NCBI GenBank assembly: GCA_001442925.1
Contig: LDXX01000003.1
Span: forward strand, 124,001 to 188,000
Reading direction: 5' to 3'
Length of the DNA: 64,000 nucleotides
DNA from: Candidatus Kryptonium thompsonii
Lineage (GTDB): Bacteria; Bacteroidota; Ignavibacteria; Kryptoniales; Kryptoniaceae
A program made the translations under genes and the position numbers. Below the pieces are notes generated by a model. The model did not search any database. It had not been told where the DNA came from and saw only the letters and a program-made list of their open reading frames with translations. This document shows, in pieces, positions 18,471-37,291 of the stretch. The number at the start of each line of letters is the position of its first letter. The first letter of the stretch is position 1.

Positions 18471-18743
18471 ATGATACTAGGAAAAGTCGTGGGAACGGTT
18501 TGGGCAACGAGAAAAGACGAAAGTTTGACAGGGTTAAAGTTTCAAATTGTTAAACATGTTGATCTTGAATATAATTTGAAAGATAACTTTTTGATAGCAG
18601 TTGATAGTGTTGGTGCTGGAGTAGGCGAGATTGTTCTCGTTGCCACTGGTAGTTCAGCACGGCTTACAGCCGTGACAAAAAATAAGCCAGTTGATGCTGT
18701 GATAATGGCGATTGTTGATAAGTTAGATGTCGTTTCAGATTAA
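18471..18743 (+). CDS. EutN/CcmL-type microcompartment vertex protein (BMC-P), copy 1
   Basis: 90 aa protein of the EutN/CcmL family, which forms pentamers that cap the vertices of bacterial microcompartments. Features are the N-terminal MILGKVVGTVWATRKDESL strand, the LKFQIVKHVD segment, and the diagnostic AVDSVGAGVGEIVLVATGSS followed by PVDAVIMAIVDKLDV. Length is normal for the family. The ATG at 18471 is used; an ATG at 18464 is out of frame. A second copy follows after 18 bases. No shell hexamer gene is found nearby, so this is a satellite pair. Confidence 0.93.
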   Translation: MILGKVVGTVWATRKDESLTGLKFQIVKHVDLEYNLKDNFLIAVDSVGAGVGEIVLVATGSSARLTAVTKNKPVDAVIMAIVDKLDVVSD

Positions 18744-18761: not shown

Positions 18762-19031
18762 GTGTTTATAGCCAAAGTGATTGGAACTGTGTGGGCAACG
18801 GTTAAAGACCAAAATTTGCGGGGATATAAGTTGCAGATAATTCAACCGTTAACTTCAAAGGGAGATAAGTTTGGTAGTCCGATTATAGCTGCCGACACGA
18901 TTGGTGCAGGTCCTGGAGAGGTGGTTATGTATATAACTGCTCGCGAGGCTGTGATACCTCTTGATGTTAAAGAAGCACCTGTTGATGCCTCAATTGTTGG
19001 AATAATTGAAAAAATTGATATCGGTTTATAA
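18762..19031 (+). CDS. EutN/CcmL-type microcompartment vertex protein (BMC-P), copy 2
   Basis: 89 aa EutN/CcmL homologue that shares the frame of copy 1: FIAKVIGTVWATVKDQNL at the start, YKLQIIQPL, then AADTIGAGPGEVVMYITA and PVDASIVGIIEKIDI. The two genes look like an old tandem duplication, with different loop residues that could suit different vertices or shells. The start is GTG, with AAAGGA 8 bases upstream; no in-frame ATG fits. The rpoD gene follows after 29 bases. Confidence 0.92.
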   Translation: MFIAKVIGTVWATVKDQNLRGYKLQIIQPLTSKGDKFGSPIIAADTIGAGPGEVVMYITAREAVIPLDVKEAPVDASIVGIIEKIDIGL

Positions 19032-35202: not shown

Positions 35203-36825
35203 TCACTTGTTTGGAAGTTGGGATTGAAATTCTTTTATTATCTTTTCTATCTGTTCTTCTGTGATCCCTGTGCCATAAATTTTTTCAGCGCCGTGGCTTG
35301 GCATTGGATAAGGCTTTTGTTCAGAGCCTACCGGTGGATTTCCAGCCTTTAAACGTATTCTTTCCTCGATTTCTTCAATTATGCTTTTTGCCTCCATTTT
35401 CAAAGTTTGGGATGAGAATCTTTTAGAGTCTTGAACTTGAACTTTGTTTCCTTCAATATCATGGATTGGGAGCAATTCATAAGCGAGTCGTTTTATCTGG
35501 ATAAGATGTTTTGCTGTGACATTTTCTGAAATGATCGAATGTCCGAGCGTTCCGGGTCCAAGCGTCATAGATGGGTCAAGACCTGTCGTATAACCTACAG
35601 CGCCAAGGGCAGCGACGGTGTTGACGAGAACTCTAAATGCTGGTTTTTCAAGTGCGAACTTCGTAATTATATCGGGATCGCTTGAGTGTATAACCATTGT
35701 GTGTCCAAGCCCACCGAACTCAAGAAGCTCAATGCATTTGTGGCAGCCTTCCCTCCAACCGTCAACTGTGTAGAAAGCAAGAATTGGAGAAAGTTTTTCA
35801 ACGGATAGGGGATATTGCTTGCCAACGCCTTCAAGTTCAGCTATTAACACAGTTGTTTGCTCAGGGACGGAGAAGCCCGCTTTTTGAGCTATATATGCAG
35901 CCGGCTTTCCGACTATTTCAGGGTTTATCCCACCTTGTGGTGTTAAGATGATTTTTTCAAGTTTTGCTTTTTCATCTGGGTTACAAAAGTAAGCGCCTCG
36001 TTTTTTGAATTCATAGATCACTTGTTCTCTTATCGGGGAGTCGCATACGACAGCATTTTCAGCGGAGCAAAGGGTTCCATAGTCAAATGTTTTTCCAAAA
36101 ATTATGTCAGCAACTGCTTTCTTTATATTCGCGGTTCTCTCAATAAAGGCTGGGACATTTCCAGAGCCAACACCATAGGCTGGTTTTCCAATGCTATATA
36201 CCATTTTGACCATTTGGGTGCTTCCAGTTGCAAGTATAAGCGAAACATCGCGATGTTTGAGAAGTTCCATCGTTCCCTCAATTGTAACCTCGGTCAAGCA
36301 CTGAAATAAATTTCTTGGTGCACCAGCTCTTTCAGCAGCGGTTTGCATCACTTGAATTGCTTCATAGGTACACTTCACAGCTCTTGGGTGCGGGCTTACG
36401 ACAAGGGCATTTCTAGTCTTGGCTGAGATTAGTGCTTTAAACATCGCAGTGGAAGTTGGGTTCGTCGTCGGGATAAGTGCAGCTATCACCCCCATTGGTT
36501 CAGCGATTTCAACAACTCGTTTTGATTTATCGTAATTTATGACGCCAACAGTTTTTAAATCTTTTATTGATTCGTATGTGAATTTCGTCGCGAATTCATT
36601 TTTCAATTTTTTGTCTTCCCATTTCCCAATTCCTGTCTCTTCGACTGCAAGCTTTGCGAGTCTTTCCGATGCTTCGTATCCAGCCTCAAACATTGCTTTG
36701 ACGATTTTGTCAACTTGTTCTTGGGGGTAATTTTTATATTCAAGGAATGCGTCTTTCGCCTTGGCGATAAGCTCGCGGGCTTGCTGGATTGAGATCAAAT
36801 CTTTATCTTTGAGTTCAAATGGCAT
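35203..36825 (-). CDS. CoA-acylating aldehyde dehydrogenase, probable microcompartment cargo
   Basis: 540 aa enzyme related to EutE/PduP that converts an aldehyde, CoA and NAD+ to acyl-CoA. The catalytic cysteine is in [14 protein letters not shown] and the nucleotide region in [16 protein letters not shown] with [15 protein letters not shown]. It is about 70 residues longer than EutE at the C-terminus: a Pro/Gly-rich linker ([19 protein letters not shown]) ends in an amphipathic helix ([16 protein letters not shown]). That layout is typical of encapsulation peptides that direct enzymes into microcompartments. The two BMC-P genes at 18.5-19.0 kb support this. The natural aldehyde (acetaldehyde, propanal or lactaldehyde) cannot be told. 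Confidence 0.9.
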
Positions 36826-36844: not shown

Positions 36845-37291
36845 TTATTCCATTAAAATTGACGCTGGATGCCATAAGCTCAAACCACTTTTTTCGTCGT
36901 AGACTCTTTCAAGTGGCTCCCCTTCAAATTCTTCTATTATCAGTTCACATGCGAAAATTTCGGTTCCCATCATCAAATGGCCGCCGAAGCATTTACCCTG
37001 ATTATCAGCAAGTGCTATGTGGCAATGAACAAACGGTTGTCCATTTAAGACGCTCACATTTCCAATACAACTTACAATTTCCATTTCTTGGTCGAGTTCA
37101 AGGTTATGATACTTTTTTTCTACTTGGTCATAAAAAGCTATCACCGCTTTTTTAACTGCTCCTATTGCGGTTATTTTGCCAATCCTTATGTTTTCTTCTT
37201 TACAAATTCTCGTAATGCTTTCAAGAAGGTCAGCTCCTTCGGGAAGGCGACCTATATAAGTTCTGCGGAGCGAATATTGTTTTCTTGACAT
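36845..37291 (-). CDS. PPC/DUF296-domain protein
   Basis: 148 aa protein consisting of one plant-and-prokaryote-conserved (DUF296) domain. Typical parts are IGRLPEGADLLESITRICKE, ITAIGAVKKAVIAFYD, and the conserved VHCHIALADNQGKCFGGHL with GTEIFACELIIEEF. Two histidines in the middle could bind metal. Such proteins form trimers; their bacterial role is not established. The gene starts 15 bases after ruvB and ends 20 bases before the aldehyde dehydrogenase gene. Confidence 0.85.
   Translation of the reverse strand: MSRKQYSLRRTYIGRLPEGADLLESITRICKEENIRIGKITAIGAVKKAVIAFYDQVEKKYHNLELDQEMEIVSCIGNVSVLNGQPFVHCHIALADNQGKCFGGHLMMGTEIFACELIIEEFEGEPLERVYDEKSGLSLWHPASILME

Follow-up and report, generated by a model that had tools for sequence, protein, structure and literature searches.

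The window, a stretch of 64,000 nucleotides from Candidatus Kryptonium thompsonii, carries the gene of an acylating aldehyde dehydrogenase with a long C-terminal tail and two genes for microcompartment vertex proteins (BMC-P) (Table 1). The vertex pair lies 16.2 kb from the dehydrogenase gene, in agreement with the 16 kb given in an earlier note on this DNA. The dehydrogenase gene itself is located between ruvB-PCC and a methylpurine glycosylase gene. Among the loci sampled, roughly two thirds have it behind ruvB, either directly or a few genes on, and others have it behind a gene for a LytTR regulator.

Table 1. Positions of the dehydrogenase gene, its tail elements and the associated genes in the window
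Feature	Position	Strand	Basis and remarks
BMC-P vertex protein 1	18471..18743	(+)	PF03319, 106 bits
BMC-P vertex protein 2, adjoins rpoD	18762..19031	(+)	PF03319, 96 bits
Acylating (acetyl-CoA-forming) acetaldehyde dehydrogenase, predicted microcompartment cargo	35203..36825	(-)	540 aa, ATG start
C-terminal encapsulation-type helix, residues 522-537	35215..35262	(-)	Conservation, amphipathicity; AlphaFold helix 523-535
Tail motif 1 (IEERxRxxAGN), about residues 481-498	35332..35385	(-)	Alignment conservation; AlphaFold helix 482-493
PCC/DUF296-domain protein, directly upstream of the dehydrogenase	36845..37291	(-)	Adjacent in several families; no tag seen

Two hexamer (BMC-H) genes were present on contig C5 of the same genome, beside a YbbR-like gene. 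The second of these (L005:9622-10116, genome G000) appeared by eye to possess a helical, Rho_N-like C-terminal extension, and in relatives the extension is longer, with open frames of about 180 to 370 amino acids. Three BMC-P genes were found in most relatives, including most members of the genus (e.g. L104:6832-7113), and the third vertex gene adjoins dprA. The shell-gene search of the genome under study yielded only two BMC-P genes and neither a third vertex gene nor a tandem BMC-T gene, and its shell composition is therefore uncertain. Shell searches indicated that the genus seems to be devoid of BMC-T. In five other genomes (L087, L091, L098, L102 and L105) tandem BMC-T lies beside a gene for a PduS/RnfC-like flavoprotein of electron transfer, a candidate electron outlet. 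The system of the organism is spread over contigs C3, C5 and C13, and the shell genes of its relatives occur at up to four places with no main locus. The scattering of shell parts and cargo described in the earlier note is real and is conserved across many families.

Dehydrogenase core and two-part tail

The dehydrogenase was assigned to family Aldedh (PF00171) by a family search and passed the curated model TIGR02518, 'acetaldehyde dehydrogenase (acetylating)', by a narrow margin (627.8 versus a cut-off of 620.1 bits). Acetaldehyde is the predicted substrate by virtue of this model. The gene is present as a single copy in its genome, the runner-up match exhibiting only 24% identity. The closest solved structures were those of acetylating and Listeria-type enzymes and of an AdhE domain. 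The enzymes of the TIGR02518 type (PDB 5j78 and 3k9d) have the same core fold and sequence, with 51% identity to both and an invariant Cys253, and the dehydrogenase domain of AdhE likewise shares core fold and sequence with the enzyme. In contrast to all of these, the enzyme from the window possesses a long disordered tail in which two helices are conserved. The acylating dehydrogenase with a linker and a C-terminal amphipathic helix, as proposed in the earlier note, was therefore confirmed by PF00171, TIGR02518, the AlphaFold model and the helical moment. The EutE/PduP-like core proposed there has to be corrected with respect to PduP, as PduP-type structures were further off.

In the AlphaFold model the core was confident up to about residue 455 and was followed by a tail of low confidence. 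The linker and the terminal helix were thus where the earlier note had placed them, but the tail starts nearer to residue 455 than to residue 490, and motif 1 had been overlooked. In an alignment of 22 tails the I, R and N of motif 1 were invariant and the A and G nearly invariant. The terminal helix had the consensus GxGISEEEIxKIIKEF across families. Its hydrophobic moment in the enzyme from the window was 0.515, a value reached by only 4.5% of the 15-mers from the open reading frames of the window, and the median for 37 orthologous tails was 0.62, at about the 99th percentile. As the helix is kept across families, it is not due to chance. The moments of motif 1 and of the helix of the organism's own DeoC (see below) were unexceptional, and the roles of these two elements are therefore argued from conservation. 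With an amphipathic terminal helix of the 15 to 20 amino acid class behind a disordered linker, the tail has the form of an encapsulation tag.

A profile search of 149 genomes revealed no second protein with the same two-motif tail. Weak matches to the helix only were considered as further cargo and discarded, as they look like chance and occur in genomes devoid of shell genes too. In a tree of the dehydrogenases the rows with the two-motif tail formed one clade of 44 rows with a support of 98, and this tail seems to be limited to the Ignavibacteria-like class and its near relatives. Among cultured relatives, Melioribacter roseus and Stygiobacter electus possess the tagged dehydrogenase. Dehydrogenases of KSB1 and a related bin (L269, L270, L274 and L282) have a different middle motif, FPYQKALxxDVSRKG, in front of the C-terminal helix.

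Distribution of the tail and the shell genes

The genome under study was compared with 148 relatives. Vertex genes were present in 56 of these 149 genomes, nearly all of which are drafts, and 93 had no shell. The full tail was detected in 48 genomes; every one of them had vertex genes, and none of the 93 shell-less genomes encoded such a tail. The restriction of the tail to microcompartment genomes, proposed as a check in the earlier note, was therefore observed. Eight shell genomes had no full tail. In two of them (G031 and G013) the dehydrogenase was present with a shortened or different tail, in G033 the gene was cut by the contig end, and in G051 and G060, which are 79% and 68% complete, no orthologue was found. 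In the remaining three (G011, G104 and G123) a different dehydrogenase is encoded close to the shell genes. Contig C1 of G123 (about 3214000-3223600) has a microcompartment locus of another kind, which comprises many BMC-H genes, a single vertex gene and a gene for a Pta-type transacylase. Only one shell-less relative (G057) possessed a homologue (46% identity), and no helix was present at its end.

As an outgroup, the 80 nearest homologues were retrieved from the species collection. Vertex genes (PF03319) were sought in 48 of the source genomes, which represent several phyla, and were found in all 48. Because of this result and the distribution among the relatives, the dehydrogenase family seems to be bound to microcompartments. 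Both results also support the reading of the tail as an encapsulation tag. Fisher values for the co-occurrence ranged from 1e-31 to 1e-33 with kinship ignored, and as the tree shows only a small number of gains and losses, these statistics are inflated by kinship.

Extended DeoC and the link to deoB

As the earlier note had stated, no aldehyde producer was recognisable in the operon of the dehydrogenase. Elsewhere the genome encodes an EP-tagged deoxyribose-5-phosphate aldolase (DeoC), and this enzyme, encoded on another contig, is very probably the source of the aldehyde. The protein (G000:C13) comprises 302 amino acids, passes TIGR00126 and has the N-terminus MHMDREYLEKIIEELLLEVKK. In shell genomes DeoC is extended by about 70 amino acids, consisting of an encapsulation-type helix, a Cys-rich stretch and a spacer with 'GAxRIS'; in shell-less relatives the protein begins almost at the catalytic domain. 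The Cys-rich stretch (e.g. CDPREPCAGCGYC) between the targeting helix and the DeoC domain was seen in L210 (G031), L215:6451-7359 and other DeoC N-termini and is degenerate in family f10. It is possibly a metal site.

A search with the full-length protein detected the extended DeoC in 52 of the 56 genomes with vertex genes. It was absent from G011, G104 and G123, which have other shell types, and from G119, which is 74% complete. PF01791 alone was unsuitable as a marker, as it matches aldolases in nearly every genome, so the complete DeoC including the extension served as the marker. In G057, which had been flagged by the start of its alignment, inspection of the sequence revealed a short N-terminus unrelated to the extension. 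Only one shell-less genome, the genus member G001 (78% complete), has kept a tagged DeoC (L187, G001:C11); neither a shell gene nor the dehydrogenase was found there, which reflects either an assembly gap or a recent loss. In the mixed families f4, f13, f17 and f22, and in f2 versus f1, the shell-less members had neither the tagged dehydrogenase nor the extended DeoC (about five contrasts, by family code, from the presence tables). The extension undergoes only about three changes of state on the DeoC tree, so that the co-occurrence of DeoC and shell rests on few independent events, and a test of independent pairs had too few pairs.

Of the 29 vertex loci fetched, 24 have the phosphopentomutase gene deoB next to the vertex pair, the exceptions being four loci of the own genus and one of family f18. 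In the relative L232 a single 10-kb stretch contains deoB, the two vertex genes, rpoD and the gene of the tagged dehydrogenase. The product of DeoB, deoxyribose-5-phosphate, is the substrate of DeoC. The link between deoB and the vertex genes could be old synteny.

Known microcompartment types and a proposed pathway

The FRAG type was reported for Ignavibacteriae and related groups, with no signature enzyme or function and few proximal dehydrogenases (Sutter et al. 2021, PMC8217296). FRAG1-7 were listed among the types without an obvious signature enzyme, for which an environmental correlate was expected to reveal the function (PMC8217296). The system described here likewise has shell genes at remote places and no enzyme cluster, and was assigned to FRAG by this gene arrangement; three BMC-P genes, as in the FRAG triplet, occur in most relatives and two in the own assembly. 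The present system adds to FRAG as published two tagged enzymes encoded at remote places, the dehydrogenase and DeoC, and the link to deoB. The open-licence literature searched contained no paper that connects FRAG with DeoC.

The SPU (sugar phosphate utilisation) type is read as serving the use of deoxyribose (PMC8217296). In G013 and seven Anaerolineae (the latter SPU6 by taxon only) a single cluster of this type unites a tagged DeoC with a similar extension, a tagged RpiB, the dehydrogenase family and shell genes. The dehydrogenases are 50 to 54% identical to the enzyme from the window, and BMC-H and BMC-P are common to both systems. Whereas enzymes, shell genes and tagged RpiB are clustered in SPU, the system described here is scattered over three contigs, and the tail of its dehydrogenase has an extra motif. 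Some genomes with the HO type (Haliangium type) have a remote gene of the DeoC family with an EP-like N-terminus (PMC8217296), a likeness to the present system, although HO, unlike that system, has a main locus.

Gene families, tags, co-occurrence and linkage make it highly probable that these genes specify a FRAG-type microcompartment, encoded among housekeeping genes, which would convert deoxyribose-5-phosphate to acetyl-CoA. Cytosolic DeoB would form deoxyribose-5-phosphate from deoxyribose-1-phosphate derived from deoxynucleosides, and the tagged DeoC would release acetaldehyde from it. In the lumen the dehydrogenase, presumably anchored to the shell by its C-terminal helix, would convert acetaldehyde, CoA and NAD+ to acetyl-CoA. 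Acetyl-CoA or its product would then leave the compartment, probably through ordinary cytosolic Pta, since the compartment-specific PduL is missing. A PduL-type phosphotransacylase was absent from the own genome, which ruled it out as the exit enzyme, and was present in only 3 of the 149 genomes, all three of which have a further shell locus or one of a different kind. Pta was rejected as a tagged core enzyme, as it occurs in 147 of the 149 genomes with or without shells and the lengths of the open frames show no obvious extension. No tagged enzyme for the recycling of NAD+ or CoA was identified.

It is improbable that the cargo dehydrogenase receives its aldehyde from another source (lactaldehyde from a class II aldolase, a diol or ethanolamine route, or external acetaldehyde) and that the tagged DeoC is a side activity. 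In four genomes a class II aldolase gene (PF00596-like) does lie a few kilobases from the third vertex gene, and PVM and GRM5 compartments employ such aldolases (PMC8217296). However, a terminal helix tag is missing from this aldolase, its gene belongs to a generic cluster of cell-wall and recombination genes, and it was rejected as the aldehyde producer. Moreover, the dehydrogenase scores above the cut-off of the acetaldehyde model, its closest matches are acetylating acetaldehyde dehydrogenases, and the tag is found on DeoC, which in its tagged form tracks the shell.

The reactions of DeoC and of the dehydrogenase are both reversible, and the genes lie among constitutive housekeeping genes with no inducible operon, as would suit a biosynthetic direction, in which acetyl-CoA is reduced to acetaldehyde and DeoC joins this to glyceraldehyde-3-phosphate to form deoxyribose-5-phosphate. 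We regard this direction as very improbable, as the position of deoB by the vertex genes points to salvage or catabolism, and a catabolic role is ascribed to SPU compartments, which have the same enzymes (PMC8217296). Hardly any weight is given to the view that the tail serves assembly or the binding of a partner in a free cytosolic enzyme and does not target a shell: motif 1 is conserved and differs from an ordinary encapsulation peptide, but the tail occurs only alongside shell genes, the dehydrogenase gene is flanked by shell genes in G013 and adjoins them in many outgroup loci, and the sole shell-less homologue among the relatives is tail-less.

The degradation of deoxyribose-5-phosphate to acetyl-CoA in a FRAG-type compartment thus remains the preferred reading. 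We propose more tentatively that FRAG of the Ignavibacteria-like class may be a constitutive deoxyribose organelle with dispersed genes and remote tagged cargo, and that the tag of the dehydrogenase may be two-part, with motif 1 as the binding site for a second partner, for instance the tagged DeoC or the helical extension at the C-terminus of the second BMC-H.

If the preferred reading is true, FRAG gains a function, the conversion of deoxyribose-5-phosphate to acetyl-CoA, backed by tags, phylogenetic profile and linkage. Cargo encoded far from the shell genes, which is missed by locus-based surveys (within 12 ORFs), would be findable by the combination of tag and profile. Such an organelle can then be encoded among housekeeping genes (ruvCAB, rpoD, dprA and ybbR).
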